This document shows positions 5,427 to 26,984 of a stretch of 64,000 bases of DNA, piece after piece (the first letter of the stretch is position 1; every line of letters starts with the position of its first letter). The DNA is from Nocardioides kongjuensis (lineage in GTDB: Bacteria > Actinomycetota > Actinomycetes > Propionibacteriales > Nocardioidaceae): the NCBI RefSeq assembly GCF_013409625.1, contig NZ_JACCBF010000001.1, positions 2,297,001 to 2,361,000 of the forward strand, in the 5' to 3' direction. The position numbers and the translations under genes are program-made. Below the pieces are notes generated by a model that worked only from the letters and a program-made list of their open reading frames with translations, was not told the DNA's origin and ran no database searches.

Positions 5427-6758
5427 TCAGCCCCGTCGCGCCCTGCGCCGGCTCCCGTTGACCCGGTCGTTGAACCTGTCGACGGCCCAGATCGTCCGGA
5501 GCCCGGCACGGCCCATCATGATCGGCCGTGGGAACCGCGGCTCGTCGTGCCACAGGGTCCGCAGGTCCTCGGGCAGCTCGTCGTCGACGATCGCGTCGGC
5601 GACGAGCGTCCCGACGTACGGCGCCTGCGCCAGGCCGTGGCCGTTGCACGCGATCGAGTAGTGGACGTTGTCGCCGACCCGGCCCGCGACCGGCAGCCAC
5701 GACGAGGTGATCGCGATCCACCCGCCCCAGGCCCGGTCGAGCGCCACGTCGGCGAGCGAGGGGAACCGGAGGGCGAAGGCGCCGGCCAGCTCCTCGACCA
5801 GGGCTCGGTCCGGCACCTTCTCCGGCAGCGGGTACGACGTGCCGCGCTCGAGCCGGCGCACCCCGAACACGATGGTGTTGCGCGGGGTGAGCCGGTAGTT
5901 CTCCATGATCGCGTGCTGGGTGACCAGGCCCATCCCGCTGGTCCACCCGAGGGCGGCGATCCGCACGGGGTCGATCGGCTCGGTCTCGACCTCGACCACG
6001 TAGATCGGCACCGACAGGTTCCGCGGGGTGATGTCCCACTCGCCGGCGAACGCGTTGGTGGCCAGCACGACATGGTCGGCACGGACCCGGCCGTGCGGGG
6101 TCGTGACGACGACCTGCTCGCCGTCGCGGACCACGTCGGTGACCTTCGTCTGCTCGAAGACCCGGGCGGCGGAGTCGAGCAGGACCCGGCGCATGCCGAG
6201 GCTGAACCTGCCCGGGTTCATCCGTCCGCCGATGACCTCGCGCATGCCTCCGACGAAGCCACGCGGGATCCCGAGCTCCGCAGCCGTCCCGACCTCGACG
6301 TGACCACCGGCGCGGGTGACGATCCTCGCGACCCGGCGCACCCGGCCCATCTGCCCGCGCGACACCGCGGCGAACGCGTTGCCGGTCGGCTCGTACTCGC
6401 AGTCGATGTCGTGCTTCGCGATGAAGTCCTCGACGTGGTGGGCGGCGTGCTCGGCGAGCCGCATCATGCCGGGCATCTTCTTGCGGGACAGCAGGTTCAG
6501 CAGCTGCAGGTCTCCGCCCGGAGCGCCGGCCAGCTGACCGGCGTTGCGCGAGCTGGACCCGTGGCCGCAGAACTCGGCCTCGAGCAGGACGACGTCCTGA
6601 CCGCGCTCCGTGAGCCGCAGCGCGGTCGACATCCCGTTGATGCCGCCGCCGATCACGGCCACCCGGCAGTCGATGTCCTCGTCCAGCGCGGGCCGTGGGT
6701 CGGTGGGCGGATCCACCCAGCCGGTGAAGGAGGTGTACTCGACGTGGTCGGTGTTCAT
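5427..6758 (-). CDS. FAD-dependent oxidoreductase of the DAO family (PuuB-like amine oxidase)
   Basis: A 443-residue flavoprotein. The FAD Rossmann motif GGGINGMSTA begins at residue 37, followed by LLEAEFCGHGSSSRNAG, the signature region of glycine/D-amino-acid/gamma-glutamylputrescine oxidases. The C-terminal GGWIAITSSWLPVAG and CNGHGLAQAP blocks fit the same fold. Expected chemistry is oxidation of a C-N bond to an imine and then an aldehyde, reducing O2. It overlaps the upstream 7-TM gene by 4 bp and is third in the MFS transporter operon behind a TetR-type operator. With the GS-like ligase, gamma-glutamyl hydrolase and aldehyde dehydrogenase of the same predicted regulon it completes a Puu-like gene set. 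Substrate unproven. Confidence 0.9.
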   Translation of the reverse strand: MNTDHVEYTSFTGWVDPPTDPRPALDEDIDCRVAVIGGGINGMSTALRLTERGQDVVLLEAEFCGHGSSSRNAGQLAGAPGGDLQLLNLLSRKKMPGMMRLAEHAAHHVEDFIAKHDIDCEYEPTGNAFAAVSRGQMGRVRRVARIVTRAGGHVEVGTAAELGIPRGFVGGMREVIGGRMNPGRFSLGMRRVLLDSAARVFEQTKVTDVVRDGEQVVVTTPHGRVRADHVVLATNAFAGEWDITPRNLSVPIYVVEVETEPIDPVRIAALGWTSGMGLVTQHAIMENYRLTPRNTIVFGVRRLERGTSYPLPEKVPDRALVEELAGAFALRFPSLADVALDRAWGGWIAITSSWLPVAGRVGDNVHYSIACNGHGLAQAPYVGTLVADAIVDDELPEDLRTLWHDEPRFPRPIMMGRAGLRTIWAVDRFNDRVNGSRRRARRG

Positions 6759-7513
6759 GCCCGGACCGCCCTGCTGCGCTCGTGGGCCGGCGCGGCACCG
6801 CGCGCCACGTCGTGGTCGTGCAGGGCGCGGTAGCCGAAGTAGTACGTGAGCAGCTGCAGGCCCCAGACGGTCAGCGCGAACGTGTAGAAGAGCGGGCGGT
6901 CCTCGATCGGGTCGACCGAGTCGGGCAGCGGGAAGAAGTCGTAGGTCAGCGCGACGACCGTCGCCGCGAGGCTGACCGCGAGGGTCGCGACCGCCGTCCG
7001 GGTCGCTCCGATGTCCCGCAGCCGCTTGGCCAAGTAGACCAGGAAGAGCAGCGTCAACAGGTTCCCCACCAGGAAGAAGGTGGCCGGCCCCTGGTGCAGC
7101 ACGAACTCACCGTTGGCGTCCACGTGCTCGCGGTACTTCGGCTGCGACAGGTAGAGCCCGCAGCCGATCGCCAGGACGAAGATGCCCACCTCGACCGCCA
7201 GGCTCGCCTTGTAGCGGTGCGTCACGGCCATCAGCCCGACCACCAGCAGCAGCGTGATGCCGATCGACCGCGAGAAGGCGTCGAAGAAGAAGGCGACGGC
7301 GTACTGGGGGCTCGCCATGCCCGCCTCGGGATCGTCGGTGAAGCGCAGCGCCCAGACCAGGAAGTTCAGCCCGGAGGTCGCCACGATGAACCACTCGATG
7401 CCGATCAGGTAGTTGCGGTAGTGCTTGATGAAGCGCCAGCCCGCCCAGTAGCCGGCCACGATCATGACCAGGTCGGCGACCAGGAAGGTCAGGCCGTAGA
7501 TCTCTTCCTTCAT
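6755..7513 (-). CDS. Seven-TM membrane protein of unknown function
   Basis: A 252-residue polytopic protein with roughly seven hydrophobic helices: an N-terminal pair (LTFLVADLVMIVAGYWAG, then WFIVATSGLNFLVWAL), and a C-terminal LFYTFALTVWGLQLLTYYFG. Short charged loops contain PKYREHVDANGEF and DSVDPIEDRP. I do not recognise the family, and there is no ATP-binding or catalytic motif. It lies 48 bp downstream of the MFS transporter and overlaps the oxidase by 4 bp, so it is cotranscribed. It might be a transport accessory, or a membrane electron acceptor or anchor for the flavin oxidase. Both ideas are inference from position only. Confidence 0.8.
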   Translation of the reverse strand: MKEEIYGLTFLVADLVMIVAGYWAGWRFIKHYRNYLIGIEWFIVATSGLNFLVWALRFTDDPEAGMASPQYAVAFFFDAFSRSIGITLLLVVGLMAVTHRYKASLAVEVGIFVLAIGCGLYLSQPKYREHVDANGEFVLHQGPATFFLVGNLLTLLFLVYLAKRLRDIGATRTAVATLAVSLAATVVALTYDFFPLPDSVDPIEDRPLFYTFALTVWGLQLLTYYFGYRALHDHDVARGAAPAHERSRAVRA

Positions 7514-7561
7514 TTCGGTTTCCTTCGGGTGAGTCGGATGGGTCGGGTGGTCGCGGCCCGG

Positions 7562-9031
7562 TCAGGCCGCGACCCGGCGGGTGCGCCGGCGGGTGCGGGC
7601 GCTGGAGACGGAGACGGTGAGCACCACCGCGAGGGCGAGTGCTCCGGAGAGCCAGTAGCCGACGCCGTACAGGCCCTGCGCGGCGACCTCGAGAGTGGTG
7701 CCGGGCACGGGGACGAGGGAGGCACTGAGGTCGGCGCTGACCAGGGCGGTGCCGAACGCGAAGCCGACCGCGAGGAAGGTGCCGGCGACCCCGGTCGCCA
7801 TCCCTGCCTTCTCCTCGGGCACGGCCAGCTGCACCAGCGTGAAGCCGGCCGCGTACCCGATGCTGCAGCCGAGACCGATGACCGCGGCGCCGACGAGGTA
7901 GTGCCACTTCTGGTCGTGGGCGAGGGCGAGCCACGTGAGCCCTGCGGCACTGATGATCGCGCCGCTGACGAAGACCGGCACCACCCGGCCGTTGTTGACG
8001 GGGCGGTCGGCGATGACGCCGCCGACGACGAAGGTCAGCGCGAAGGGCAGCATCAGCCAGCCGGTCTCGAGCGCGCTGAGGCCCAGGCCGTAGGAGTCGA
8101 TCGGGCGCAGCGCCTCGGGGATGATCTGCGCGTAGGTGCTGACGAGCAGCAGGAACGCCGAGTTCACGGCCGCGAAGAGCGCGATGCAGATGCACGAGGC
8201 GGTGACGAGCGGGGCCTTCATCAGCGCGACGTCGAAGACGGCCGACGAGGAGCGTCGCTCGACCCGGAACCACGCGATGCCGCCGACGACGCCGAGCACG
8301 AGCGGGATCAGCGCCGCGTTGCCCCACACGAGGCCCTGGGTCATGGTCAGCAGGACGGCCGCGACCCACGCGATCATCCACACGGTGCCGACGACGCCGA
8401 TGCGCCCGTTGCGCTCGGCCGGCGGGGCGTGCGGGATCAGGAGGTACGACGCGACCGTGGTCACCACCCCGATTGCGGTGAGCACCACGAAGAAGCTCTG
8501 CAGCGACAGGCTCTGCACGATCAGCCCGCCGCCGATCATCCCGGCGACGATGCCGACGCCCGTGCCGATGACCAGGACCGCGACCGCGATGGCGATGCCG
8601 CTCTCCCCCAGGCCGCGGCGCAGGAACCCCAGCGGGAGCACCTGGGCCGCCCCGCCGAAGCCCATCAGGGCGCAGCCGACGAGGAGGGTCGGGTAGGAGT
8701 CGCCGATCGCCGGCACGAGGGCGCCGGCGGTGAGGAAGACGGCAGCCGCGACGTTCGCGTTCCGGTCCCCGTGCAGGTCCGCCAGCCGGGGCAGCAGGAT
8801 GAATCCCGCGCCGCCGCCGAGGGTGAGGACGGTGTAGAGCCAGGTCGTCTCCGCGACCGTGGCGAGGCCGTACTGCGCCTGGATGACCGGCAGCAGCGGC
8901 GGGAGGATGAAGATGATGGCGTTGGTCAGGACGACCAGCAGCGCCCCGATGCCGACGAGGGCGCCCCTTCCGCGAACGGCTCCTGCCGTCGATGTGCGGG
9001 CGAGTCCGCCCGGGTGCTCGATCTGTGTCAT
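7562..9031 (-). CDS. MFS transporter
   Basis: A 489-residue major facilitator protein with 12-14 hydrophobic segments. The cytoplasmic loop after TM2 reads LPRLADLHGDRN, the position of the family motif A (GxLaDrxGrr). The PEEKAGMATGVAGTFLAVGFAFGTAL segment resembles drug-efflux and aromatic-acid MFS members. It is divergently transcribed from the TetR regulator across 192 bp containing several TTAGTCA/TGACCAA half sites. First gene of an operon with the 7-TM protein and the DAO oxidase. Direction of transport is not evident: context favours substrate uptake, but TetR-MFS pairs are more often efflux. Confidence 0.92.
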   Translation of the reverse strand: MTQIEHPGGLARTSTAGAVRGRGALVGIGALLVVLTNAIIFILPPLLPVIQAQYGLATVAETTWLYTVLTLGGGAGFILLPRLADLHGDRNANVAAAVFLTAGALVPAIGDSYPTLLVGCALMGFGGAAQVLPLGFLRRGLGESGIAIAVAVLVIGTGVGIVAGMIGGGLIVQSLSLQSFFVVLTAIGVVTTVASYLLIPHAPPAERNGRIGVVGTVWMIAWVAAVLLTMTQGLVWGNAALIPLVLGVVGGIAWFRVERRSSSAVFDVALMKAPLVTASCICIALFAAVNSAFLLLVSTYAQIIPEALRPIDSYGLGLSALETGWLMLPFALTFVVGGVIADRPVNNGRVVPVFVSGAIISAAGLTWLALAHDQKWHYLVGAAVIGLGCSIGYAAGFTLVQLAVPEEKAGMATGVAGTFLAVGFAFGTALVSADLSASLVPVPGTTLEVAAQGLYGVGYWLSGALALAVVLTVSVSSARTRRRTRRVAA

Positions 9032-9082
9032 GACTGGTCTCCGATCGGTGCGGTGTGATCCGGCTCATACGCTAGGCCGAAG

Positions 9083-9124
9083 TTAGTCAGACGATCAAGA
9101 TGTATGACCAAGATGTTTGACCAA
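9083..9124. promoter_or_regulatory. TetR operator A between MFS operon and tetR
   Basis: TTAGTCA (9083-9089), 15 bp, TGACCAA (9105-9111): the same 7-15-7 layout as sites B and C. A second TGACCAA (9118-9124) follows 13 bp later, and a further half site, TGACTAA, is at 9169-9175 within TTGACTAAATCAA. The cluster lies in the divergent region between the regulator and the transporter, where an autoregulated TetR protein is expected to bind. Confidence 0.72.
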
Positions 9125-9223
9125 GTTTTCGCCGCTGGAGTGGCGAGGGCGTGCTGATATGCTCGCTTTGACTAAATCAAGCGCCCAACTGAAGGCGGGC
9201 GCCCCGGCACCCCGGAGGACCTG

Positions 9224-9853
9224 ATGGCACGGATCCCGGTCGCCCAGCGACGACGCGACTTCATCGATGCCGCCGTCGAGGTGATCGCCTCCCACGGCAT
9301 CGACGGCGCGACCACGCGCCGGATCGCCGAGCAGGCCAAGGCCAACGTCGCGATGCTGCACTACTGCTACGACTCGAAGGAGGACCTGTTCGCGGACGTC
9401 TACGAGTTCGTGACGGGCAAGTACCGCGAGGTCATCGAGGGCAGCGACCCGCACACCGACCTCCCCGACGCGGCGGAGCAGATCCTGCGGGGTGTCATGC
9501 AGTGCTACCTGGAGTCGCCGAGCTTCACCGCCACGACCTTCGAGCTGGTCAGCTGGGCCCGGCGCCAGCACGGCGACCGCGGCATCGCGGTCTACGACCA
9601 GGCGTTCGACACGGTGCGCAAGGCGCTGCAGGAGGCGGCCGCCGCCGACCCCGTCACGCCGGAGCTCATCGACGAGATCGCCTACGTCCTCGCCACCCTC
9701 GCCGACGGCTTCGGCGTCAACTGGCTGACCTACGGCGACGCCGACGTGGCGCGCGCGCAGATGGAGATCAACTGCTCGGTCCTCGACACGTGGCTGTCGG
9801 GCCGGCTCGCCGCCACCAAGCCGGCGCGACGCAAGCGCGCGGCCCGGGCCTGA
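9224..9853 (+). CDS. TetR-family transcriptional regulator of the amine-catabolic regulon
   Basis: A 209-residue repressor. The N-terminal helix-turn-helix occupies about residues 10-55 (FIDAAVEVIASHGIDGATTRRIAEQAKANVAMLHYCYDSK has the standard TetR spacing, with TTRRIAEQA as recognition region). The remainder is a helical ligand-binding domain and an Arg/Lys-rich tail. It is divergent from the MFS operon. Its presumed operator TTAGTCA-N15-TGAC(T/C)AA recurs before the two catabolic operons at 17.6-17.8 kb, so one regulator probably controls about 13 genes. The ligand is likely the substrate or an intermediate; this is inference. Confidence 0.92.
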   Translation: MARIPVAQRRRDFIDAAVEVIASHGIDGATTRRIAEQAKANVAMLHYCYDSKEDLFADVYEFVTGKYREVIEGSDPHTDLPDAAEQILRGVMQCYLESPSFTATTFELVSWARRQHGDRGIAVYDQAFDTVRKALQEAAAADPVTPELIDEIAYVLATLADGFGVNWLTYGDADVARAQMEINCSVLDTWLSGRLAATKPARRKRAARA

Positions 9854-9883
9854 CCGGCCCCTGACCGCGCGCCGCGCCTGGTC

Positions 9884-11341
9884 TCACATCGGCAGGTCGG
9901 GCGAGTCGACGCCGACCACCCGGTCGCCGCAGAAGACCCGGACCGACTCGGCCGGGCCGTGGCCACCGACGCCGGCGGGCCCCCAGAAGCTCTGGGCGGA
10001 GTCGTCGCCGAGGTCGGCGACCTTGGCGCCGTTGACCCGCACCTCCCCCGCGACGATGCGGGAGCCGACCTCGATCGCGCGGTCGGTGTCGGTGCCGAAC
10101 ACGTAGGCGTCGAGGCCCGAGGGATGGGCGTTGGCGATCCGCAGCGCCTGCTCGGCGGAGTCGACGGCGTGCAGCGAGACCAACGGGCCGAACAGCTCGG
10201 CGGTCGCGGCCGAGGGGTCCGCGCCCGAGGCGAGTGTCGGCGAGAGGAACCAGCCGCCCAGGTCGGGCAGTGCGGCAGGCTGGTCGATCTCGGCGCCGAG
10301 GTCGCGCAGACCCTCGATCCGGGACTGCAGCGTGTGGAAGTGCGCTCCGTTGGAGATCGGGCCGACCTGGGCGTCGTCGTCGAGGGAGTGGCCGACGACC
10401 AGCGTGGCGATCCGCTCGGTGAGCGCCTCTCGCAACGGCCCGACCAGGTGGTGGGGTGCCAGGACCTTGCCCGGTCCCTCGCACCACTGGCCGTTGAGCT
10501 TGGTCATCCCGTCGAGGATGCCGTCGGCGGTGACGTCGAGGTCGGCGTCGTCGAGGACGATCACCGGGTTGTTGCCGCCGAGCTCGAGCTGGAGGACCTT
10601 GAAGTCCTCGACGGCCGCGCGGGCGATGGCCCGGCCGGCGCCCGGTCCGCCGGTGAACGAGACGATCTTGATCCGCGGGTCGCCCGTCACCTGCGCGCCG
10701 ACCTCGCCTGCGCCGTGCACCAGCTGCAGCGCACCGGACGGGAGTCCCGCCTGGACGAAGCAGTCGACGACGACCTGGGCGCTGGCCGGGGCGTGCTCCG
10801 ACGGCTTGAGGACGACCGGGCAGCCGGCCGCGATGGCGCTGACGACCTTGGCGGCGGGGATGAAGCTCGGACCGTTCCACGGGGTGAGGATCGCGGCCGG
10901 GCCCCACGGCACCTTGTGCAGCCTGACGTCGCGCCCTCCGGCCTCGAGCGCGGTGACGCGCGGGATGTCACGCAGGTCCTGGGCCGCCGAGCGGATCCGG
11001 TACGGCAGGAAGGCCGCGACCTTGCGGGTGGCGCCGATCGGCGTACCGCTGGTCAGTGCGTCGGTGCGGGCGATGTCCTCGATGCGGGCCTCGAGGTTGT
11101 CCGCCACCCGGTCGAGCACGGCGGCCCGTTCGTGACGCGCCTCGTCGTCCCACCGGCCGACGTCGTAGGACGCCTCCGCGTGCCGGAGTGCGCGCTCGAC
11201 CTCGTCGGCGTCGGTCGTGACGCTGCGGTGGAGGGGTTCGCGCGTGTTGGGGTCGACGTTCCAGCTGTCGAGGGTCCTGCACTCGCTCCAGTGGTCGGCG
11301 ATGTAGTTGACCGGCTGCGCGACGGTGGCCACGTTGCTCAT
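9884..11341 (-). CDS. Aldehyde dehydrogenase, NAD(P)+-dependent
   Basis: A 485-residue member of the ALDH superfamily oxidising an aldehyde to a carboxylate. The general base is Glu253 (LELGGNN) and the nucleophile Cys287 (GQWCEGPGK). The cofactor-binding region holds the PWNGPSFIPAAK block and FTGGPGAGRAI. The NGQWCEGPGK context differs from the usual GQxC..-R loop and may reflect an unusual substrate. It is last in the seven-gene operon and overlaps the alcohol dehydrogenase stop by 4 bp. Together they fit two-step oxidation of an omega-hydroxy acid to a dicarboxylate. An alternative role is the PuuC-like oxidation of a gamma-glutamylated aminoaldehyde. Confidence 0.94.
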   Translation of the reverse strand: MSNVATVAQPVNYIADHWSECRTLDSWNVDPNTREPLHRSVTTDADEVERALRHAEASYDVGRWDDEARHERAAVLDRVADNLEARIEDIARTDALTSGTPIGATRKVAAFLPYRIRSAAQDLRDIPRVTALEAGGRDVRLHKVPWGPAAILTPWNGPSFIPAAKVVSAIAAGCPVVLKPSEHAPASAQVVVDCFVQAGLPSGALQLVHGAGEVGAQVTGDPRIKIVSFTGGPGAGRAIARAAVEDFKVLQLELGGNNPVIVLDDADLDVTADGILDGMTKLNGQWCEGPGKVLAPHHLVGPLREALTERIATLVVGHSLDDDAQVGPISNGAHFHTLQSRIEGLRDLGAEIDQPAALPDLGGWFLSPTLASGADPSAATAELFGPLVSLHAVDSAEQALRIANAHPSGLDAYVFGTDTDRAIEVGSRIVAGEVRVNGAKVADLGDDSAQSFWGPAGVGGHGPAESVRVFCGDRVVGVDSPDLPM

Positions 11342-12450
11342 CGGAGCTCCTCTCCGGCCCGCAGGTCGACGACGATGCGGGTCACGTCACCGGACTTCAT
11401 CTGCTCGAAGCCCTCGTTGATCTCGGCGAACGGCACGACCCGGGTGACCATCTCGTCGAGCAGCAGGCGGCCCTGCTGGTAGAGCCGGGCGAACTGGGTG
11501 ATGTCCTCGCGGGCCTGGCCCGAGCCCATGTAGGAGCCGATCAGCCGCTTCTCCTGGAAGAAGAAGTCGAGTGCGGGCACCGTGAGCTCGGTGCCCATGG
11601 GGGCGATCCCGACGAGGCAGGCGGTCCCGGTCGCCCGCACCAGGGCCAGTGCCGTCTCGGCGGTGCGGGCGGAGCCGACGGCCTCGAAGGCGTAGTCGAC
11701 GCCGTCGCCGAGGAGCCGCTGCAGCTCGGCGACGGGGTCACCGTCCCCACCGTTGATGGTGTGGGTGGCGCCGTAGGTGCGAGCCGCCTTGAGCCGGTCG
11801 TCGTCGAGGTCGATCGCCACGACGGCCGAGGCGCCGGCGAGCCGCGCGCCCTGGACGATGGCCGACCCGACGCCACCGCAGCCGATGACGGCGACGGTGC
11901 TGCCGGGGCGTACCTGCGCGCCGCGGAAGACCGCACCGACGCCGGTGACGATGCAGCACGACAGGAGGCAGCCGACGTGCAGCGGTACGTCGTCGGGCAG
12001 CCGCACCAGCGCGGTCTCGCGCAGCAGGATGTGCTGGGAGAAGGCGCCGATGGCAGCGAGGCGCTCGATCGGCCGGCCGTCGACGGTCTCGAAGGCGGGC
12101 CGCTGCCGCAGGCGGACCTCGTCGAGGCGCGTGCACTGCGTCGAGTGTCCGACCTCGCAGTTGACGCAGCGGCCGCACGACGGGGTGAGTGCCCCCGTGA
12201 CGCGATCGCCGGGTCGCAACGTGGTCACGGCCGTGCCGACCGACTCGACGACACCGGCGACCTCGTGCCCGACCACGACCGGCAGCTCGGTGGGCACGGT
12301 CCCGGTCATGTAGTGCAGGTCGCTGTGACACAGCCCGACGTGCGTCACCGCGACCCGCACCTCGTGCGGCTCCGGGTCGTCGACCCGGATGTCGGTGAGC
12401 TCCAGCGGTGCGCCGATCTCGTTCAGGACGGCGGCTCGGGTGGTGATCAT
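11338..12450 (-). CDS. Zinc-dependent alcohol dehydrogenase (class III-like MDR)
   Basis: A 370-residue medium-chain dehydrogenase. Catalytic zinc ligands are Cys41 (GLCHSD) and His62-Glu63 (GHEVAG). The structural zinc cysteines are C92, C95, C98 and C106. The NAD-binding GCGGVGSA follows. The GHSTQCTRL and MGSGQAREDI blocks resemble NDMA-dependent and benzyl-alcohol-type actinobacterial ADHs. The start at 12450 overlaps the enoyl-CoA hydratase stop by 4 bp, and the stop overlaps the ALDH start by 4 bp, so translation is coupled across all three. Probable role: oxidation of the hydroxy acid released by lactone hydrolysis, to the semialdehyde. Confidence 0.94.
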   Translation of the reverse strand: MITTRAAVLNEIGAPLELTDIRVDDPEPHEVRVAVTHVGLCHSDLHYMTGTVPTELPVVVGHEVAGVVESVGTAVTTLRPGDRVTGALTPSCGRCVNCEVGHSTQCTRLDEVRLRQRPAFETVDGRPIERLAAIGAFSQHILLRETALVRLPDDVPLHVGCLLSCCIVTGVGAVFRGAQVRPGSTVAVIGCGGVGSAIVQGARLAGASAVVAIDLDDDRLKAARTYGATHTINGGDGDPVAELQRLLGDGVDYAFEAVGSARTAETALALVRATGTACLVGIAPMGTELTVPALDFFFQEKRLIGSYMGSGQAREDITQFARLYQQGRLLLDEMVTRVVPFAEINEGFEQMKSGDVTRIVVDLRAGEELR

Positions 12451-17635: not shown

Positions 17636-17664
17636 TTAGTCATATGACTCGATTGATTGACCAA
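17636..17664. promoter_or_regulatory. TetR operator B, upstream of the seven-gene catabolic operon
   Basis: TTAGTCA (17636-17642), 15 bp, TGACCAA (17658-17664), the same layout as at 9083-9111. The last AAGATG flank is also shared with site A. It lies 34 bp upstream of the ATG at 17601, consistent with a position overlapping the promoter. Confidence 0.72.
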
Positions 17665-17771: not shown

Positions 17772-17800
17772 TTAGTCATCCGGCTCAATCAAATGACTAA
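17772..17800. promoter_or_regulatory. TetR operator C, upstream of the Baeyer-Villiger operon
   Basis: The most symmetrical copy: TTAGTCA (17772-17778), 15 bp, TGACTAA (17794-17800), a perfect 7-bp inverted repeat. It ends 26 bp before the ATG of the monooxygenase, with an AGAAGGAAG ribosome binding site between. A TTGACG at 17744-17749 could be the -35, with the operator at or just downstream of the -10. Confidence 0.75.
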
Positions 17801-19353: not shown

Positions 19354-20417
19354 GCGCGCAGACCTTCACGGCGGCGCAGCGCCTCCAGCGCGGACTGCTC
19401 GTCCTTCTCAGCCGGCTGCCGGCGAGCCTGCAGCGGATGCTCGCCCGGCCCGCGACCAACACGGCCGGCGACACCATGGCGCCCGACGTCGCGCTGCTGA
19501 TGAAGCTCACCGAGAGCGGCCCGGACTACAGTGACCTGCCGCCGGCCGAGGCTCGTGCGACCACCGAGCGCGACCTGGCCCTCTTCGCGTCGCGCATCCC
19601 CGCGTGCGCCGTCGAGGAGGAGATCGAGATCGGCGACGGCCTCCTGGCCACCCGCTACAGCAACGGCACGCCCGACCGGGGTCTCGTCCTGTTCTTCCAC
19701 GGCGGCGGCTTCGTCATCGGCAGCCGGGCGAGCTACACGGCCCCGGCGCGGATGCTCGCGCACGGCACCGGCGCGGACGTCGTCTCCGTCGAGTACCGCC
19801 TCGCGCCGGAGCACCCCTTCCCCGCCGCCCAGGACGACGCCCTCCTCGCCTGGCACCACGTCGTCGAGCACGCCGCCGGATGGGGGGCCGACCCGCACCG
19901 GATCGTCGTCGCCGGCGAGAGCGCGGGCGGCAACATCGCCGCCGTCCTGTGCCAGCAGGTGCGCGACGAAGCAGTGCGGCCGATGCTCCAGGTGCTCATC
20001 CAGCCGGTGACCGACCTCGTCGAGCACCGGCCCTCGCAGGACGAGTTCGCCGGCTCCCCCGCCCTCTCGGCCAAGCAGGTCGCGTGGTTCGTCGACAACT
20101 ACCTGCCCGACGGCACCGACGTCGCCGACCCGCGCGTCTCTCCCTACCGGGCGGCCTCGCTGGACGGGCTACCGCCCGCGATCGTCAACCTCGCCGGCTT
20201 CGACCCCCTCCACGACGACGGCCTGGCGTACGCGACGGCCCTGCTCGAGGCCGGCGTACCCACCCAGGTGGACCGGGAGGCGGGCCTGGTGCACGGCTAC
20301 CTGTCCTACACCGCGATCAGCCCGAGCTGCCGGGAGGCGACCGAACGGCTCGTCGCCTCGGTCTCCACGGTGCTGGACCGCGCCGCCCACACCACCCCGA
20401 CCAGGAAGGCGAGCTGA
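19350..20417 (+). CDS. Alpha/beta hydrolase, hormone-sensitive lipase (HSL) family
   Basis: A 355-residue esterase/lactonase. The HSL oxyanion motif HGGG is at residues 117-120 and the nucleophile Ser191 in GESAGG. The acid is probably Asp in AGFDPLHDDG and the histidine in GLVHGYL. YRLAPEHPFPAA is the family YRLAPE block. The start ATG overlaps the monooxygenase stop (ATGA), and the amine oxidase follows 5 bp after the stop. Expected job: hydrolysis of the ester or lactone produced by the Baeyer-Villiger enzyme. The N-terminal ~80-residue helical cap is of ordinary length. Confidence 0.94.
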   Translation: MSAQTFTAAQRLQRGLLVLLSRLPASLQRMLARPATNTAGDTMAPDVALLMKLTESGPDYSDLPPAEARATTERDLALFASRIPACAVEEEIEIGDGLLATRYSNGTPDRGLVLFFHGGGFVIGSRASYTAPARMLAHGTGADVVSVEYRLAPEHPFPAAQDDALLAWHHVVEHAAGWGADPHRIVVAGESAGGNIAAVLCQQVRDEAVRPMLQVLIQPVTDLVEHRPSQDEFAGSPALSAKQVAWFVDNYLPDGTDVADPRVSPYRAASLDGLPPAIVNLAGFDPLHDDGLAYATALLEAGVPTQVDREAGLVHGYLSYTAISPSCREATERLVASVSTVLDRAAHTTPTRKAS

Positions 20418-20422
20418 GCACC

Positions 20423-21841
20423 ATGACCACCGCACGCAAGGACAAGATCCGCGAGGAGACCCACGAGGTCGTCGTCATCGGCGCCGGGATGGCCGGCCTG
20501 ATGGCCGCGACCACGCTCGCCGAGCGCGACGTCGTCGTCCTCGAGGCGGCCGATCGCGCCGGCGGCCGGGTCGACACGGTTCGCAGGGGCGAGTACTGGA
20601 TCAATGTCGGCACCCAGTTCACCGAGGGGACCGGCCCCCTGATCGACGCGCTCCACCGGCACCAGGTCCCCCTGGGCACGCTGGAGGGTAAGTCGGTCGC
20701 CCTCAACATCGGGGGCAAGCAGGTCGACACCTCGAACCCCTTCTCGCTCATGCTCAGGTCGAGGATGACGTGGCGCGACCGGTTCGGCCTGGCCCTCGTC
20801 GGCTCCCGGATCCTCGCGAACGTGCCCTTCCTCGAGATGAGCGAGGACAACCGGTGGGCGAACCGCGTCCGCGCGAAGCTCGACCGCCGCCGCGCCGACT
20901 TCGTGCTCCGTGGCGTCAGCTCCGAGCTCGCCCACGAGATGGTCCGCTCCTGGTCCGGGCAGTGGATGGGCTGTGAGCCGGAGGAGACCGCCGCACGCCA
21001 GTTCGTGTTCTCCATGGGCATCCTGCTCACCGACCCCGAGAAGGTCCCGAACCTGACCCTTCCGCAGGGCGGCAACCAGACCCTCACCGACATCCTCGCC
21101 GCCGACCTCGGCGACCGGGTCCGGCTCGGCTCGCCGGTCAGCTCCGTGCAGTGGACCGACGACGGCGTCGTCGTCGACTACCGGGACGCCGACGGACCGG
21201 TCCGGATCCGAGCCGACCGCGCGATCGTCGCCGTGCCCGCCGACATCGCCGTGCGGATCATGCCCGACCTGCCGACCGAGTACCGGACGGCCTTCGAGGC
21301 CATCCGCTACGGCCGGTACGTCGTGGTCGGCTTCTTCACCCACGAGGACGGCGAGCCCCAGCGGTGGGACGACTACCTCGCGGTGTCGACCCCAGGAAGA
21401 GCGTTCCAGGCCGTCTTCAACCACGCGGCCGCCGTACGGCGTGGAGGCGTCCGCAAGCCCGGGGGCGCCCTGGCCTGCTTCGCCGGCGGTGCCGAGGCGG
21501 ACCGGCTCTTCGAGCTCAGCGACGAGGAGATCGTCGCGCGGTTCACGGCAGACCTGCTCGACCTCTACCCGGAGCTCGCCGGCAAGGTCGACCCCGGCAT
21601 CCTGCGCCGCCACCCACGGGTCGTGCCGTTCTGGGCCCCGGGCGGACGCGCCTGCCTGGACACGCTCAGGCAGAGCCTGGGCCCGGTCCACCTCGCCGGC
21701 GACTACCAGCTCGACGTCCCCTCCCTCGCCGACGCCGCCGCGTCGGGCGAGCGTGCCGGGCAGCTGGTGCTGGCCAGCCTCGAGGAGCGGGGAGCCGAGC
21801 TCAGCGGAACGCCGCGTGGCCCGTCATCGCCTGGCCGATGA
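20423..21841 (+). CDS. Flavin-containing amine oxidase family protein
   Basis: A 472-residue FAD oxidoreductase of the monoamine oxidase fold. The FAD motif VVVIGAGMAGL begins at residue 16, followed by EAADRAGGRVDT, and the C-terminal substrate/FAD closing segment includes HLAGDYQLDVPSLADAAASG. Likely chemistry is oxidative deamination of an amine to a carbonyl, as in monoamine and cyclohexylamine oxidases; the fold also includes carotenoid and porphyrin desaturases. In this operon, an alicyclic amine turned to a ketone would feed the Baeyer-Villiger step. The 3' end overlaps the convergent acyl-CoA dehydrogenase gene by 41 bp. Confidence 0.9.
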   Translation: MTTARKDKIREETHEVVVIGAGMAGLMAATTLAERDVVVLEAADRAGGRVDTVRRGEYWINVGTQFTEGTGPLIDALHRHQVPLGTLEGKSVALNIGGKQVDTSNPFSLMLRSRMTWRDRFGLALVGSRILANVPFLEMSEDNRWANRVRAKLDRRRADFVLRGVSSELAHEMVRSWSGQWMGCEPEETAARQFVFSMGILLTDPEKVPNLTLPQGGNQTLTDILAADLGDRVRLGSPVSSVQWTDDGVVVDYRDADGPVRIRADRAIVAVPADIAVRIMPDLPTEYRTAFEAIRYGRYVVVGFFTHEDGEPQRWDDYLAVSTPGRAFQAVFNHAAAVRRGGVRKPGGALACFAGGAEADRLFELSDEEIVARFTADLLDLYPELAGKVDPGILRRHPRVVPFWAPGGRACLDTLRQSLGPVHLAGDYQLDVPSLADAAASGERAGQLVLASLEERGAELSGTPRGPSSPGR

Positions 21842-22991
21842 CCAGGGTGTGCATCTCGACGGTGCCCTCGTAGGTCAGCACGGACTCGAGGTTGTTGGCG
21901 TGGCGGATCACCGGGTACTCCAGCGAGATGCCGTTCGCGCCCAGGACCGTGCGGGCGGTGCGGCAGATCTCGAGAGCCTCACGGACGTTGTTGAGCTTGC
22001 CCAGGGACACCTGCTCGGGACGCAGCGTGCCGGCGTCCTTGCGGCGGCCGAGGTGCAGCGCGAGCAGCACGCCCTTGGTGTACTCCAGGTTCATGTCGAC
22101 CAGCTTCTGCTGGGTGAGCTGGAACGCCGAGATCGGCTTGCCGAACTGGATCCGCTGGTTCGCGTAGTCCAGTGCTGCCTGCAGGGACGAGCGCGCCGCG
22201 CCCATCGCACCCCACACGATGCCGTAGCGGGCCTCGTTGAGGCAGGACAGCGGCCCCTTGAGCCCGCGCACGTCGGGGAACGCCGCCGAGTCCGGCAGCC
22301 GGACGCCGTCGAGCACGATCTCGCCGGTGACGGAGGCGCGCAGGGACTGCTTGTGCTTGATCTCCGGGGCGGAGAAGCCCGGGGTCGAGGTGGGGACGAC
22401 GAAGCCGCGCACGCCCTCCTCGGTCTGGGCCCAGACGACGGCGACGTCGGCGACGGAGGAGTTGGTGATCCACATCTTGCGGCCGTCGAGCACCCAGTCG
22501 GAGCCGTCCCGGCGGGCCCGGGTGCGCATGCTGCCCGGGTCGGAGCCCGCGTCCGGCTCGGTCAGGCCGAAGCAGCCGATCGCCTCGCCCGCCGCCATGC
22601 GGGGCAGCCACTGGGTCTTGTGCTCCTCCGAGCCCCAGCGCCAGATCGCGTACATCGCGAGCGAGCCCTGCACGGACACCAGGGAGCGGATGCCGGAGTC
22701 GGAGGCCTCGAGCTCGAGGCAGGCCAGGCCGTAGTCGGTGGCCGACATGCCGGCGCAGCCGTAGCCCTCCAGGTGCATGCCCAGCAGACCGAGGGAGCCG
22801 AGCTCCTTGGCCAGGCCGCGGATGTCGTCGATGGTGCCGCGCTCGAACCAGTCGGCGACGTACGGGTCGACCCGCTCGGCACACAGCTGACGAACCGAGG
22901 CGCGCACGGCCTTCTCGTCGTCACTCAGCAGGTCGTCGATGCCCGCGGGGTCGAGCGGCTCGAACGGCGGAAGGGTGGTCGGGGTGCTCAT
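21801..22991 (-). CDS. gcdH: Glutaryl-CoA dehydrogenase (decarboxylating)
   Basis: A 396-residue acyl-CoA dehydrogenase converting glutaryl-CoA to crotonyl-CoA and CO2, with electrons to ETF. The sequence follows the GcdH pattern closely: LEGYGCAGMSATDYGLACLE, SVQGSLAMYAIWRWGSEEHK, GCFGLTEPDAGSDPGSM, KMWITN, and the catalytic base Glu375 in TYEGTVEMHTL. It starts 4 bp inside the CoA-transferase gene and is the last gene of the pucR-linked gab/gcd operon. With the CoA-transferase it completes glutarate to crotonyl-CoA. This identification is the strongest clue that a five-carbon dicarboxylate is the exit point of the cluster. Confidence 0.94.
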   Translation of the reverse strand: MSTPTTLPPFEPLDPAGIDDLLSDDEKAVRASVRQLCAERVDPYVADWFERGTIDDIRGLAKELGSLGLLGMHLEGYGCAGMSATDYGLACLELEASDSGIRSLVSVQGSLAMYAIWRWGSEEHKTQWLPRMAAGEAIGCFGLTEPDAGSDPGSMRTRARRDGSDWVLDGRKMWITNSSVADVAVVWAQTEEGVRGFVVPTSTPGFSAPEIKHKQSLRASVTGEIVLDGVRLPDSAAFPDVRGLKGPLSCLNEARYGIVWGAMGAARSSLQAALDYANQRIQFGKPISAFQLTQQKLVDMNLEYTKGVLLALHLGRRKDAGTLRPEQVSLGKLNNVREALEICRTARTVLGANGISLEYPVIRHANNLESVLTYEGTVEMHTLVIGQAMTGHAAFR

Positions 22992-24163
22992 CGCGGGTTC
23001 TCCTGGTTGTCCTGAGGGATGCTCAGCATGGTTCGTACGTCGTCGTTGTGCTCGCCCAGCCCGGGCGGAGCGGTGTAGGTCGTCACGGGCGTCGCGGAGA
23101 AGGTCAGCGGGCTGCGGACCTGGCGGGCCCGGCCGTGGCCGACGTCGACGGTCGGCTCGAGCCCCAGCCTCGTGGCGAGCTCGAAGCCGTCAGCGACCGA
23201 GCCCACCTTGCCGACCGGGAGCCCCGAGCCGGCGAGCCGCTCCACCCACGTGTCCACGGTATCGGCAGCCAGCGCGTTCTCGAGCAGGCCGACGAGGTCC
23301 TCGCGGTGCGCGACCCGGTCGCCGTTGGTGACGAAGCGTGGGTCCGCGGCCAGGCCGGGCAGGCCGACGGCGGACACGAGCCGGGCGAACTGGCCGTCGT
23401 TGCCGCAGCACACCGCGACATGGCCGTCCTTGGCGCGCAGCGTCTCGTACGGCGCGATCGAGGGGTGCTGGTTGCCCATCGCGACCGGGGCGGCGCCCGT
23501 CGTGAGGTACGCCGAGGCCTGGTTCGCCAGCGAGCCGAGCAGGCTCGAGAGCAGGTTGACCTCGACCCGCTGGCCGCGCCCCTCGGCGTGCCGGTCACGG
23601 GCCCGGAGAGCCGCGAGGATGCCGACGACGGCGTCCTTGGACGTCAGCACGTCGACGAGCGCGACGCCAGCCTTGGTCGGCTCGTCGGGCCGGCCGGTGA
23701 TGCTCATCAGGCCGCCCACGGCCTGGACGAGGAAGTCGTAGCCGGCGAGGTCCGCTCCCCCGCCGCTGCCGAAGCCGGTGATGGAGGCATAGACGACGCC
23801 GGGGTTGCGGGCCGCCACGGCGTCGTACCCCAGGCCGTGCCGGTCGAGGGAACCGGCCCGGAAGTTCTCGATCAGCACGTCGCAGCGGGCCGCGAGCTCC
23901 CGGGCGACCGCGAGGTCGGCGGGATCGGCCAGGTCGAGCTCGACCGACTTCTTCGACCGGTTGGCGCACTCGAAGTAGGAGCTCGAGCTGCCGGCAGGCG
24001 TCTCGGTCCACGGCGGGCCCCAGTGCCGGGTGTCGTCACCGACCCCGGGGCGCTCGACCTTGATCACCTCGGCGCCGAGGTCGGCGAGGGTCGCCGCGGC
24101 GAGCGGACCCGCCAGCACCCGGCTGAAGTCGGCGACCAGCACCCCGTCGAGAGGCAGGCTCAT
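22988..24163 (-). CDS. CaiB/BaiF (class III) CoA-transferase, probable succinyl-CoA:glutarate type
   Basis: A 391-residue class III CoA-transferase. Family landmarks are SRVLAGPLAAATLADLGAEVIKVE at the N-terminus and the conserved Asp171 (VALVDVLTSK) that carries the acyl intermediate. It also has SITGFGSGG and YDFLVQAVGGLMSITG. The direct pairing with gcdH (4-bp overlap) matches the known gcdG/SUGCT arrangement, so transfer of CoA from succinyl-CoA to glutarate is the likely reaction. Class III enzymes act on varied acids, so the substrate is inferred from its neighbour. Upstream it overlaps the aldehyde dehydrogenase gene by 4 bp. Confidence 0.92.
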   Translation of the reverse strand: MSLPLDGVLVADFSRVLAGPLAAATLADLGAEVIKVERPGVGDDTRHWGPPWTETPAGSSSSYFECANRSKKSVELDLADPADLAVARELAARCDVLIENFRAGSLDRHGLGYDAVAARNPGVVYASITGFGSGGGADLAGYDFLVQAVGGLMSITGRPDEPTKAGVALVDVLTSKDAVVGILAALRARDRHAEGRGQRVEVNLLSSLLGSLANQASAYLTTGAAPVAMGNQHPSIAPYETLRAKDGHVAVCCGNDGQFARLVSAVGLPGLAADPRFVTNGDRVAHREDLVGLLENALAADTVDTWVERLAGSGLPVGKVGSVADGFELATRLGLEPTVDVGHGRARQVRSPLTFSATPVTTYTAPPGLGEHNDDVRTMLSIPQDNQENPR

Positions 24164-25644
24164 GAGCGCCTCCCGTTCACCCGGCGCGGCAGTCCCCACG
24201 GGTTGGCGGCCTGCGCCTCGGGCGGGAGCCACCCGTCGTGCGCGGACTGGTAGGCCACCGGACGGACGAACCGCGACAGGCCAGCCGCCCCCACCGAGGT
24301 CGACGCCGGGGAGGAGGTCGAGGGCCAGGGGCCTCCGTGCTGCTGGGCCCAAGTGAACGCGACACCGGTCGGCCACTCGTCGACCGCGACCCGCCCGACC
24401 TTGCCGCTGAGCAGCGCGATGACCTGGGCGGCCTGGTCGTCGTCCGCGCCACCGGTGATGACGCTGGCAGCCAGCGACCCCTGCAGCCGGCCGAGCACGT
24501 CGGCGAGCTCCGGCGCACCGTCGTACTCGACGACGAGGGCGACGGCGCCGAAGGTCTCCTCCAGGAGCCGGCTGCCGGGCACCAGGGCCGATGCGGGCGC
24601 GGCGAGGACGGCGGCCGGCGCAGCCCAGCCCCCGGAGCCCGCGGGCACCTCGCCGACGAGCTCGGCACCCGCGTCGAGCATCGCCGCGACACCGGCGGCG
24701 ACGCCGTCCGCGATGGCCTCGGTCAGCATCACCGGTTCGGGTCCCGCTGCGCGCAGCGCGCCCGCCACCGCGTGCGCGGCGCCCGAGCCGACCGGCGCGA
24801 GCAGGAGGCCGGGCTTCGTGCAGAACTGACCGCTGCCCAGGGTGAAGGAGCCGACGAACCCCTTGGCGACTGCGTCGATGTCGACCGCACCGCCCGAGGT
24901 GACGACCACCGGGTTGACCGTGCCCATCTCGGCGTACACCGGGATGACGACCTCGCGCTCGTTGGCGATGCGCCACAACGCCAGGCCGCCCGCCTGGGAG
25001 CCGGTGAAGGCGACCGCCGTGGTCTCGGGAGCCTCGACGAGGTCGACGCCGGTCCGGTGACCGCTCACGACCGCGAAGGAGCCGCGCGGGGCACCGGCGC
25101 CGGCCAGCGCCTCACCGGCGATCTCGGCCTGGCGCAGCGAGAGACCGACGTGCGCAGGGTGCGCCTTGGCCACGACCGGGCACCCAGCGGCGAGCGCTGC
25201 GGCCGTGTCGTTGCCGAGCACGCTGAACGCGAACGGGAAGTTGCTCGCGCCGAAGACCGCGACCGGACCGAGTGGCCGGTTGACCCGGACCAGGCCGGGC
25301 GTGGTGGCGGTCGGCTCGTCGACGGTGACGTCGAGGTACGAGCCCTCGGCCGCGACGTCGGCGTAGAACCGGAGCTGGCCGGCCGCCCGGGTGACCTCAC
25401 CGGTCAGCCGCTCGAGACCGAGGGCGGTCTCGAGGTCGGCGAGGCGCGCGAGCTCGGTGCGGTGCAGCTCGAGCGCGTCGGCGACGGCGTACAGCCAGGT
25501 ACGGCGCTCGACCGGGCTCGTGGCGCCCAGCCGCGGCGCGGCGGAGGTCGCGGCCGCCAGGGTCGAGCGCAGCTCGTCGGGGCTGGTGTCGGCGACCGTG
25601 GCGACGACCGCCCCCGTACGCGGGTCGAAGGAGGTGACGCTCAT
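24160..25644 (-). CDS. Aldehyde dehydrogenase, ketoglutarate-semialdehyde dehydrogenase-like
   Basis: A 494-residue ALDH of the NADP+-type group that includes alpha-ketoglutaric semialdehyde dehydrogenases (FGASNFPFAFSVLGND and AAGCPVVAKAHPAH are its marks). The general base lies in YAEMGTVNP and the nucleophile is Cys275 (GQFCTKPG). It lies between the gabT-like aminotransferase (4-bp overlap) and the CoA-transferase (4-bp overlap). It therefore probably oxidises the omega-semialdehyde made by that aminotransferase: succinate semialdehyde from GABA, or glutarate semialdehyde from 5-aminovalerate. The gcdG/gcdH neighbours favour the latter. Confidence 0.93.
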   Translation of the reverse strand: MSVTSFDPRTGAVVATVADTSPDELRSTLAAATSAAPRLGATSPVERRTWLYAVADALELHRTELARLADLETALGLERLTGEVTRAAGQLRFYADVAAEGSYLDVTVDEPTATTPGLVRVNRPLGPVAVFGASNFPFAFSVLGNDTAAALAAGCPVVAKAHPAHVGLSLRQAEIAGEALAGAGAPRGSFAVVSGHRTGVDLVEAPETTAVAFTGSQAGGLALWRIANEREVVIPVYAEMGTVNPVVVTSGGAVDIDAVAKGFVGSFTLGSGQFCTKPGLLLAPVGSGAAHAVAGALRAAGPEPVMLTEAIADGVAAGVAAMLDAGAELVGEVPAGSGGWAAPAAVLAAPASALVPGSRLLEETFGAVALVVEYDGAPELADVLGRLQGSLAASVITGGADDDQAAQVIALLSGKVGRVAVDEWPTGVAFTWAQQHGGPWPSTSSPASTSVGAAGLSRFVRPVAYQSAHDGWLPPEAQAANPWGLPRRVNGRRS

Positions 25645-26984
25645 CGGACACCCCGGATCGCGTCGACGAGGACGTCGATGGCCTCGTCGAGGAGGTCGAA
25701 CGGGATGACCAGTGGCGGCAGCAGCCGGATGACGTTGCCGTAGGTGCCGCACTGGAGCGTGAGGACCCCCTGCTCGTGACAGCGTTCGACGACGGCCTTC
25801 GCGATCGCCGGCGCCGGCTGCGTGGTTCCGGGCTCCACGAGCTCCAGCGCCAGCATCGCGCCGCGCCCGCGGACCTCGCCGACGACCGAGCCGGCGACGA
25901 CCAGCTCCGCGAGGCGAGGAAGGACCCGCTCCTCGATCTCGCGCGCCCGGGCCACCAGGCCCTCGGACTCGATCGCCTCGAGGGCGCCGAGTGCCGCGGC
26001 GCAGGCGACCGGGTTCCCGGCGTACGTGCCGCCGAGGCCGCCGGCCGCCACGGCGTCCATGATCTCGGCGCGACCGGTCACCGCGGCGAGCGGCATCCCT
26101 CCCGCGAGGGCCTTGGCGGTCGTGACCAGGTCGGGGACGACGCCCTCGTGCTCGCACGCGAACATCGCGCCGGTGCGGCCCAGACCGGTCTGGATCTCGT
26201 CGGCCACGAACACGATGCCGTGCTCGGTGGCGAGCTCCTGGACCGCCTTGAGGTAGCCCGGTGGCGGGACGATGAAGCCGCCCTCGCCCTGGATGGGCTC
26301 GACCACGATCGCGGCGACGTTGGTCGCACCGACCTGGATGGTCACGATGTCCTTCAGCGCGGCGAACGCCTCCTCGGCGGCGCGCTCGGGGCCGGACGGC
26401 CATCGGTAGGGATAGGGCGACGGGACCCGGTACACCTCCGGCGCGAGCGGTCCGAAGCCCTGCTTGTACGGCACGTTCTTCGCGGTCATCGCCATCGTCA
26501 GGTTGGTCCGGCCGTGGTAGGCGTGGCCGAGCACGACGACCGCGGGCCGCCCGGTCGCCGTACGCGCGATCTTGATCGCGTTCTCGACGGCCTCGGCACC
26601 CGTGCTGAACAACGCGGTCTTCTTGGCGTGGTCGCCCGGGGTGAGCCGGTTGAGCGCGGCGGCGACGTCGACGAAGCCGTCGTACTCCGTCACGAGGAAG
26701 CAGGTGTGGGTGAACCGCGCGGCCTGCTCGGCGATCCGCCGGGTCACCGCGGGATGGGCAGCACCGACGGACGTGACGGCGATGCCCGAGGCGAGGTCGA
26801 TGATGTGGTTGCCGTCGACGTCGACGAGGATGCCGCCGCCGGCGCGGTCGACGAAGACCGGCATCGTCGTGCCGAGTCCGTTGGCCAGCTCCGCCTTGCG
26901 CTGCGCCTGCCGTTCCAGCGACAGCGGGCCCGGGATGGCCGTGGCGAGGATCCGGCGCTGCTCCGGTTGGGTCGAGGTCGTCAT
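25641..26984 (-). CDS. gabT: 4-aminobutyrate/5-aminovalerate aminotransferase, class III PLP
   Basis: A 447-residue omega-aminotransferase. Class III marks: STGAEAVENAIKIARTATGR (cofactor phosphate region), HAYHGRT, DEIQTGLGRTG, and the PLP Lys291 in TAKALAGGMPLAAV. The overall sequence is GabT-like, moving the terminal amino group of GABA or 5-aminovalerate to 2-oxoglutarate. It is the first gene of a tightly overlapping four-gene operon (aminotransferase, ALDH, CoA-transferase, GcdH), 92 bp downstream of pucR. I could not see a clear Shine-Dalgarno sequence before the ATG at 26984; the upstream region has TTTCGGCATTTCG repeats on the minus strand that may bind the regulator. Confidence 0.93.
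   Translation of the reverse strand: MTTSTQPEQRRILATAIPGPLSLERQAQRKAELANGLGTTMPVFVDRAGGGILVDVDGNHIIDLASGIAVTSVGAAHPAVTRRIAEQAARFTHTCFLVTEYDGFVDVAAALNRLTPGDHAKKTALFSTGAEAVENAIKIARTATGRPAVVVLGHAYHGRTNLTMAMTAKNVPYKQGFGPLAPEVYRVPSPYPYRWPSGPERAAEEAFAALKDIVTIQVGATNVAAIVVEPIQGEGGFIVPPPGYLKAVQELATEHGIVFVADEIQTGLGRTGAMFACEHEGVVPDLVTTAKALAGGMPLAAVTGRAEIMDAVAAGGLGGTYAGNPVACAAALGALEAIESEGLVARAREIEERVLPRLAELVVAGSVVGEVRGRGAMLALELVEPGTTQPAPAIAKAVVERCHEQGVLTLQCGTYGNVIRLLPPLVIPFDLLDEAIDVLVDAIRGVR

Follow-up and report, generated by a model that had tools for sequence, protein, structure and literature searches.

A conserved actinobacterial gene cluster of Nocardioides kongjuensis that may join glutamate tagging of an amine with Baeyer-Villiger cleavage

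The question raised by this locus of Nocardioides kongjuensis is what kind of amine its genes break down, and which of the adjoining genes belong to that route. The DNA analysed, referred to here as the window, is a stretch of 64,000 nucleotides (positions 2,297,001 to 2,361,000 of contig NZ_JACCBF010000001.1) from a genome of 5.67 Mb. A first-pass annotation of the letters had read positions 5427-26984 as one pathway that takes an amine, possibly alicyclic, to glutarate. We find that 14 genes, labeled A-N and together called unit 1 (5427-21841), are conserved as one unit, and that the adjoining glutarate operon is separate from them. In our reading, to which we give a probability of about 0.6, A-N form one catabolic regulon under the TetR regulator D, in which an amine would be tagged with glutamate and its chain then cleaved by a Baeyer-Villiger monooxygenase (BVMO) and an esterase.

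Gene calls were made from frame-specific GC content together with family searches in Pfam and NCBIfam. Every gene type named by the first-pass annotation has family support: a glutamine synthetase (GS)-like ligase (J), a DAO-family flavin oxidase (A), an aldehyde dehydrogenase (E), a C26 hydrolase (I), a BVMO (L), an HSL-family hydrolase (M), an alcohol dehydrogenase (F), a CoA ligase (H) and an enoyl-CoA hydratase (G). The membrane protein B had no match in Pfam or NCBIfam. Table 1 collects the coordinates of unit 1 and of its neighbors.

Within the family, 8 of 245 genomes, this one included, carry J (E 1e-60 or better), and the nearest named relative is that of Pimelobacter simplex (92%). 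Among the seven other J-carrying genomes, four (G201, G127, G105 and G230) have the A-N block in the same order, with C absent and N in two pieces in G105, and J in two pieces in G230. The order is kept without N in G102 and G080, and G066 has a shorter core. N occurs in 5 of the 245 genomes, every one a J carrier. The split genes (L025:18078-19434 for N of G105, L030:12391-13732 for J of G230) each run through two frames, from a frameshift or a sequencing error.

For a wider comparison, genome contigs were scanned with a J alignment. The scan gave 66 loci; the 46 with a J identity of at least 52%, all actinobacterial, were counted, and gene roles were tallied in the stretches about 10 kb either side of J. 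I is present in all 46, K and E in 45, F and a BVMO-type gene in 44, a hydrolase in 43, H in 42, G in 34 and B in 33; K adjoins J in nearly all. Further roles are an APC-type permease (19 loci), a 3-aminobutyryl-CoA ammonia-lyase homologue (13 loci, the overlap of L062 and L077 leaving 12 distinct genes), an imine reductase homologue (11) and PhyH (10). Since some stretches stop at contig ends or within A, absences are upper bounds. The cluster is carried by Nocardioides, Amycolatopsis, Nocardia, Rhodococcus, Gordonia, Mycobacterium and Streptomyces, and because gene order is kept across genera, the grouping of A-N is far beyond chance. Both Nocardioides luteus and Nocardioides albus have A-N. 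The ten most distant loci (L068-L074, L076, L079 and L099) still have J, F, I and E, and nine of them K.

Elsewhere, H and G occupy one open reading frame (ORF) of 775-820 aa in 21 of 36 called H ORFs (L043-L058, L060, L065, L067, L075 and L077), which makes it probable that the two enzymes work in a single route; they are separate in 13, mostly Nocardioides and Pimelobacter, and two H ORFs are cut short. The 20 loci outside the counts (L078 and L080-L098, J identity 33-46%) have K in two, I in two, an H-like gene in five, and a G-like and a BVMO-like gene in one each. Ten glutarate loci served as controls: no BVMO, hydrolase or K was found in them, and I, J and E occur only as 29-44% paralogues, with one H-like ligase (33%) and one oxidase-like gene (29%). 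Some genomes hold two differing versions of the cluster: L062/L077 in Amycolatopsis sp. NBRC 101858, where they are about 14 kb apart on one contig, L046/L053 in A. regifaucium and L035/L054 in N. stalactiti.

The promoters offer a second line of evidence. The window has five copies of the heptamer TTAGTCA, two in the C-D gap (9083 and 9169) and three in the K-L gap (17636, 17772 and 17794); dinucleotide shuffles give an expectation of 0.34, and none of 100 reaches five. A search of the 5.67 Mb genome for the palindrome TTAGTCAT-N13-ATGACTAA, with up to three mismatches, returns four sites: a perfect one, two with two mismatches and a distant one with three. The first three all lie within the two divergent promoter regions of unit 1, and a reversed control pattern has one genome site. 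Of the 74 heptamers counted across the 46 loci, 70 are at the starts of cluster genes (K, L, a replacement monooxygenase, D, C, B or PhyH), in zones that were set by hand and make up no more than about one third of a locus. The palindrome is kept in relatives, where it also precedes non-orthologous BVMO and PhyH genes. TTAGTCA is present in 18 of the 19 loci with a D of at least 55% identity, versus 8 of the other 27, and D is the candidate binder of the palindrome. A-N are apparently jointly controlled, as one regulon.

A third line comes from enzymes that are exchanged for others in the same role. Type I BVMOs carry the fingerprint FxGxxxHxxxW[PD], which is found in strict form in L, in 33 of 34 ORFs of its cluster (the miss is a short ORF call) and in all four members of another cluster; five loci have a PtlE-like monooxygenase. 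An alpha/beta hydrolase fills the hydrolase role in 13 loci (from Gordonia, Nocardia, Rhodococcus, Tsukamurella and Mycobacterium, some from Amycolatopsis, and one each from Nocardioides and Streptomyces), 9 of which also have a canonical flavoenzyme of the monoamine oxidase (MAO) type. A 2,4-diaminopentanoate-dehydrogenase-like enzyme in six loci and another flavin oxidase in one may stand in for amine oxidation. On a J tree, made by a quick method and with labels set by hand from the role table, the amine-oxidising type changes four times, the BVMO type four times and the lyase six times; the hydrolase swap is one change and therefore not a repeated event. Synteny, the common operator-like palindrome and the filling of the same roles by non-orthologous enzymes thus tie the Puu-like set to the BVMO, hydrolase, alcohol and aldehyde dehydrogenases, CoA ligase and hydratase, as the first-pass annotation had grouped them.

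Table 1. Features of unit 1 and of the neighboring sets (positions in the window)
Feature	Assignment	Coordinates	Strand	Evidence or remark
Ferredoxin reductase	start of gene, P450 set	1..732	-	PF07992; continues left of window, L009:14509-15732
Ferredoxin	P450 set	740..928	-	PF13459
P450	neighboring cyclic-amine-type set; outside unit 1	959..2161	-	PF00067; synteny with Q-P-O
A	DAO-family flavin oxidase, PuuB-like	5427..6758	-	PF01266, 184 bits; 29% to E. coli PuuB over 405 columns
B	membrane protein, usually beside A or L	6755..7513	-	in 33/46 loci; "transporter" in some records
C	MFS transporter	7562..9031	-	PF07690
Palindrome	operator-like, between C and D	9083..9111		pattern search; 2 mismatches
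D	TetR regulator, proposed palindrome binder	9224..9853	+	PF00440
E	aldehyde dehydrogenase, PuuC-like	9884..11341	-	PF00171; 30% to PuuC
F	zinc alcohol dehydrogenase, near NDMA-dependent and mycothiol types	11338..12450	-	TIGR03989, 296 bits, under cut-off 440
G	enoyl-CoA hydratase family	12447..13184	-	PF00378; start uncertain, 13184 or 13220
H	AMP-binding CoA ligase	13226..14845	-	PF00501
I	peptidase C26 gamma-glutamyl hydrolase, PuuD-like	14842..15606	-	PF07722; 30% to PuuD
J	predicted GS-like gamma-glutamyl-amine ligase	15603..16955	-	PF00120; 30% to PuuA
K	predicted SCP2-fold protein	16948..17601	-	AlphaFold2 model and Foldseek; 45/46 loci
Palindrome	operator-like, upstream of K	17636..17664		pattern search; 2 mismatches
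Palindrome	operator-like, upstream of L	17772..17800		pattern search; perfect
L	Type I BVMO	17827..19353	+	FxGxxxHxxxWP fingerprint; PDB BVMO matches
M	HSL-family hydrolase	19350..20417	+	PF07859, 229 bits; HGGG and GESAGG motifs
N	divergent flavoprotein, Amino_oxidase superfamily	20423..21841	+	PF01593, 134 bits
O	acyl-CoA (glutaryl-CoA-like, GcdH-type) dehydrogenase; outside unit 1	21801..22991	-	family searches
P	succinate-glutarate CoA-transferase-like (CaiB-type); outside unit 1	22988..24163	-	NF052585, 349 bits, cut-off 750
Q	semialdehyde dehydrogenase-like (aldehyde dehydrogenase); outside unit 1	24160..25644	-	family search
R	gamma-aminobutyrate/5-aminovalerate-type transaminase (GabT); outside unit 1	25641..26984	-	TIGR00700, over cut-off
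S	PucR-type regulator beside O-R	27077..28534	-	PF07905; adjoins R in L138, L139, L143, L144 and L146

For the chemistry, the ligase is the natural starting point. J, A, E and I match E. coli PuuA, PuuB, PuuC and PuuD nearly over their full length at 29-30% identity (BLASTP), and J scores 174.6 bits with the curated gamma-glutamylputrescine synthetase model NF045547, far short of its cut-off of 650. Its E132, E134, E196, E203, H251 and E336, equated by motif with the metal ligands, are invariant in eight sequences. The flap glutamate of the ammonium site is replaced, J having GPPTT where the L001 GS of this genome has GYEAP (placed by motif); compared with the L001 and L002 GS of this genome, J further carries an insertion at its N terminus. 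The flap glutamate typical of ammonium-using GS is likewise replaced in GlnA4, according to the portion of that paper available (PMC6529630). By its anatomy, J is probably a ligase for organic amines.

The protein beside it, K, belongs to no family found in Pfam or NCBIfam, SCP2 models included; the ORF used in the searches extends to a TTG at 17664, and the relative in L034 starts at a Met matching 17601. The predicted structure (AlphaFold2, pLDDT 90) finds solved SCP2 domains best in Foldseek, at E from 1.1e-3 to a few 1e-2 and with probability mostly near 1; TM-scores are 0.23-0.30 by query and 0.43-0.58 by target, about half of K is covered, and no Foldseek match reaches E 0.001 or below. 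An SCP2 fold is thus predicted for K. Domains of this kind bind hydrophobic ligands, and a protein of this predicted fold beside J suggests that the substrate of unit 1 is a hydrophobic amine.

With the step order taken from enzyme classes, J, probably with K delivering the hydrophobic substrate, would join glutamate to a primary amine, and a flavin oxidase (A, N or both) would oxidise the C-N bond to an imine or ketone. L would convert the ketone to an ester and M would hydrolyse it; the alcohol set free could then be oxidised by F and E, yielding an acid, H would make the acyl-CoA, G would hydrate it, and I would recover the glutamate. In the Puu pathway, the rationale of the glutamate tag is to keep amino-carbonyl intermediates from cyclising; here it would likewise prevent such cyclisation and protect the amine of an amino-ketone.

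The identity of N needs qualification. It was called an amine oxidase by the first-pass annotation; the superfamily holds, but a canonical enzyme is ruled out, since the best match to solved amine oxidases is 3e-18 even with a profile (1.5e-104 for a sister-locus oxidase). In a J-tree clade of 12 loci, N is present in three (L058, L059 and L061), a MAO-type oxidase in eight and neither in one, and this replacement supports amine oxidation by N.

Several points weigh against the regulon reading. N lacks the canonical amine-oxidase motifs (GTETA..GY, found C-terminally in the sister-locus oxidase) and is not beside J in two near relatives, L035 and L047. A was counted in only 27 of the 46 loci, many of the stretches ending in or before it, and an amine-oxidising gene of any kind in 36. 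The strict BVMO fingerprint is in none of the five PtlE-like monooxygenases. The 46 loci were picked by J similarity and are not independent, two of them overlapping. In the ten most distant, the matches to E (27-34%, ten loci), H (27-33%, six) and M (37-46%, eight) are weak and may be unrelated neighbors. Finally, comparing the two promoters by 18-mers gave no significant result (14 of 18 matches, a level that 5 of 60 shuffles also attain), and the heptamer was picked by eye from the output of that comparison, after the promoters had been seen; the genome-wide and cross-species counts of heptamer and palindrome are the check on that choice.

A tentative variant of the route, which we consider possible though doubtful, would serve ring-substituted cyclic amines such as 2-alkyl pyrrolidine or piperidine alkaloids. 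In this "trap and cleave" scheme oxidation of the ring amine would give a cyclic imine that equilibrates with an open amino-ketone, J and K would capture the latter as its gamma-glutamyl amide, the BVMO and esterase would cut beside the ketone, and F, E, I, H and G would finish, joined in some genera by a beta-aminoacyl-CoA lyase. Imine reductase homologues lie directly after E in six loci (L051:17187, L052:17244, L053:17332, L055:17154, L057:17148 and L075:17099) and elsewhere in five (L070, L072, L076, L079 and L099); in the two of these 11 that were compared, the match to the R-imine reductase 3zgy is 2.1e-34 (L055) and 2.2e-32 (L076). The ammonia lyase homologue of sister loci, whose identity is likely but not certain (the one scored has 151 bits, under the NCBIfam cut-off of 160), points to a beta-aminoacyl-CoA there, which fits gamma-amino-ketone cleavage. 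Together, these homologues favor, without proving, an imine or amino-ketone intermediate. The alicyclic C5 amine of the first-pass annotation is not borne out; the predicted SCP2 fold and the imine reductases suggest that the amine is hydrophobic and that the route has an imine stage.

The predicted fold of K could also be taken to mean that it presents a long-chain or terpenoid amine, or a lipid-like amino alcohol, to J, with F and E oxidising an alcohol end in the manner of the GlnA4 ethanolamine route. We think this unlikely. It would agree with the retention of J, F, I, E and, with one exception, K in the most distant loci, and the GlnA4 cluster, as far as the available text lists it, has ligase, dehydrogenase, aldehyde dehydrogenase and amidotransferase (PMC6529630). 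Nevertheless, SCP2 folds can serve other roles, and the recurring amine-oxidising enzymes and imine reductases are not needed by such a route.

Plain breakdown of a diamine or polyamine (1,3-diaminopropane or spermidine), by way of gamma-Glu-beta-alanine, CoA activation and hydration, is distinctly unlikely. The likeness of J, A, E and I to PuuA-D speaks for it, as do the lyase homologue of the 13 loci and the permeases, which are amino acid permeases of one cluster, some at only 25-40%. However, the BVMO would be incidental, the esterase and SCP2-like protein are also left unexplained, and the best lyase match in this genome scores 24.8 bits against the cut-off of 160.

It is quite improbable that two independent systems lie side by side here, with A-K a polyamine pathway of the Puu kind and L-N a BVMO operon for lipids or ketones. 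L-N are on the opposite strand, and BVMO-esterase pairs occur elsewhere; MymA-LipR is one. AcmA-AcmB, in the part of the source available, is another (PMC6215540). Against such a division, the palindrome is at both divergent promoters, and also before replaced monooxygenase genes, and 44 of the 46 loci have a BVMO-type gene.

We return to the regulon reading to ask where its route ends. The gabT, semialdehyde dehydrogenase, CaiB-type and GcdH-type genes of the adjacent operon (R, Q, P and O) are confirmed by family searches. The comparison across actinobacteria that the first-pass annotation had proposed keeps A-N together and leaves this operon out: none of O, P, Q or R, at 50% identity or above, is beside unit 1 in any of the 46 other loci, most of whose stretches stop inside A; the region beyond A was covered only in the seven family neighborhoods. 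Pattern searches of window and genome give no palindrome site at O-S. Of the 245 genomes of the family, 65 have Q at E 1e-90. In ten other places, from genomes drawn from the best Q matches rather than at random, O-P-Q is always intact, with R adjoining in seven and further off in one. Both unit 1 and O-R are present in G127 and G201, far apart or on other contigs.

The operon has another companion. A P450 set, which starts at 2161 and runs left (window 1-2161 and L009:9498-17000), comprises a P450, ferredoxin, reductase and GS (GS2), these four contiguous, a solute-binding protein, two C26 hydrolases and an aldehyde dehydrogenase (ALDH2). Here unit 1 lies between it and O-S, which are about 18 kb away, while O-P-Q abuts such a set in four of the ten genomes: on the R-S side in G162 and G127, and on the Q side in G050 and G040, with small order changes in G127 and no adjoining R in G050 and G040. 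The P450 (at least 64%, 11 of 245) and Q (at least 59%, 22 of 245) are common to nine genomes (nominal p 3e-9, kinship uncorrected).

Because O-R lies away from unit 1 elsewhere, lacks the palindrome and in four relatives abuts such a P450 set, a cyclic amine ending in glutarate probably fits this P450-GS set. A consistent reading would run from piperidine through 5-aminopentanal, gamma-glutamylation and 5-aminovalerate, then by R, Q, P and O to crotonyl-CoA. Thus the title of the first-pass annotation may be right for a set that it did not list, and its glutarate claim for unit 1 is most likely wrong; as the end point of unit 1, glutarate was rejected on synteny, the missing palindrome and the P450-set adjacency. 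A C5 alicyclic amine passing through unit 1 to a dicarboxylate and on to glutarate is highly improbable: the two units do adjoin here, O-R is a plausible route from 5-aminovalerate to glutaryl-CoA, and of the eight J genomes three have Q at 59% or above (p 0.026) and two the P450 (p 0.044; both nominal, kinship uncorrected), but the 46 other loci, the separation in G127 and G201, the promoters and the different amine set beside O-R all count against it. A large UPF0182 protein at 29569-32526 is unconnected with the cluster.

The combination in unit 1 is real and widespread and, as far as a literature search of open-licence PMC papers (titles and abstract starts) reaches, undescribed; it is a new arrangement of known enzyme families. 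That search found no cluster with all of these parts, as the first-pass annotation had supposed, and none joining glutamate tagging with Baeyer-Villiger cleavage, the two chemistries that our reading, if true, would connect. Since the cluster is in many actinobacterial genera, its amine substrate should be widespread, and the one-regulator design makes the cluster testable by reporter. The biological contexts of imine reductases are little known, according to the portion of a paper seen (PMC10851217), and the relatives' loci offer a setting for them. If the trap-and-cleave scheme holds, these homologues would have a catabolic role, and the neighboring P450-GS set would serve unsubstituted rings as its aldehyde counterpart, with glutarate as the end.

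Among known systems, the pip/mor P450 clusters for piperidine and morpholine match the neighboring set most closely, not unit 1. According to the passages available, genes for an electron-transfer protein, a ferredoxin reductase, a P450 and a GS follow one another by locus tag in Gulosibacter, where the P450s share 52-53% identity with PipA and MorA; the likeness of our set is one of gene kinds and contiguity, not of sequence compared with PipA or MorA (PMC9477822). The AcmA-AcmB acetone operon of Gordonia shares the BVMO and esterase genes, and the passage from ketone to ester to acid and alcohol; likened by description only, it differs in that the available text mentions no amine or glutamyl genes (PMC6215540). 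The GlnA4 ethanolamine cluster of Streptomyces has in common a ligase, dehydrogenase, aldehyde dehydrogenase, glutamine amidotransferase, membrane protein and transporter, whereas a BVMO, M-kind hydrolase, CoA ligase and SCP2 protein are not among the genes listed in the part seen (PMC6529630).

NpaA1 (8wwu), a GoaS enzyme, is only distantly related to J (151 bits). GoaS clusters feed ring dioxygenases and alaninol. The GoaS enzymes (NpaA1 and the aniline and isopropylamine ligases) are described, in the sections available, as GS-like and without the flap glutamate of the ammonium site (PMC11335346). J likewise lacks it, with an N-terminal insertion that is not aligned to the amine-binding loop of NpaA1. 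Glu357 and Asp50 are lost in GoaS enzymes by the same partial account, while J keeps E336, equated with Glu357, and Asp50 is not placeable in it (PMC11335346). With E. coli Puu (PuuA-D), finally, unit 1 would share the logic of tagging an amine with glutamate, oxidising it and then removing the glutamate; to that set it adds an alcohol dehydrogenase, a CoA ligase, a hydratase, the SCP2-like K, a BVMO, a hydrolase and a TetR regulator.

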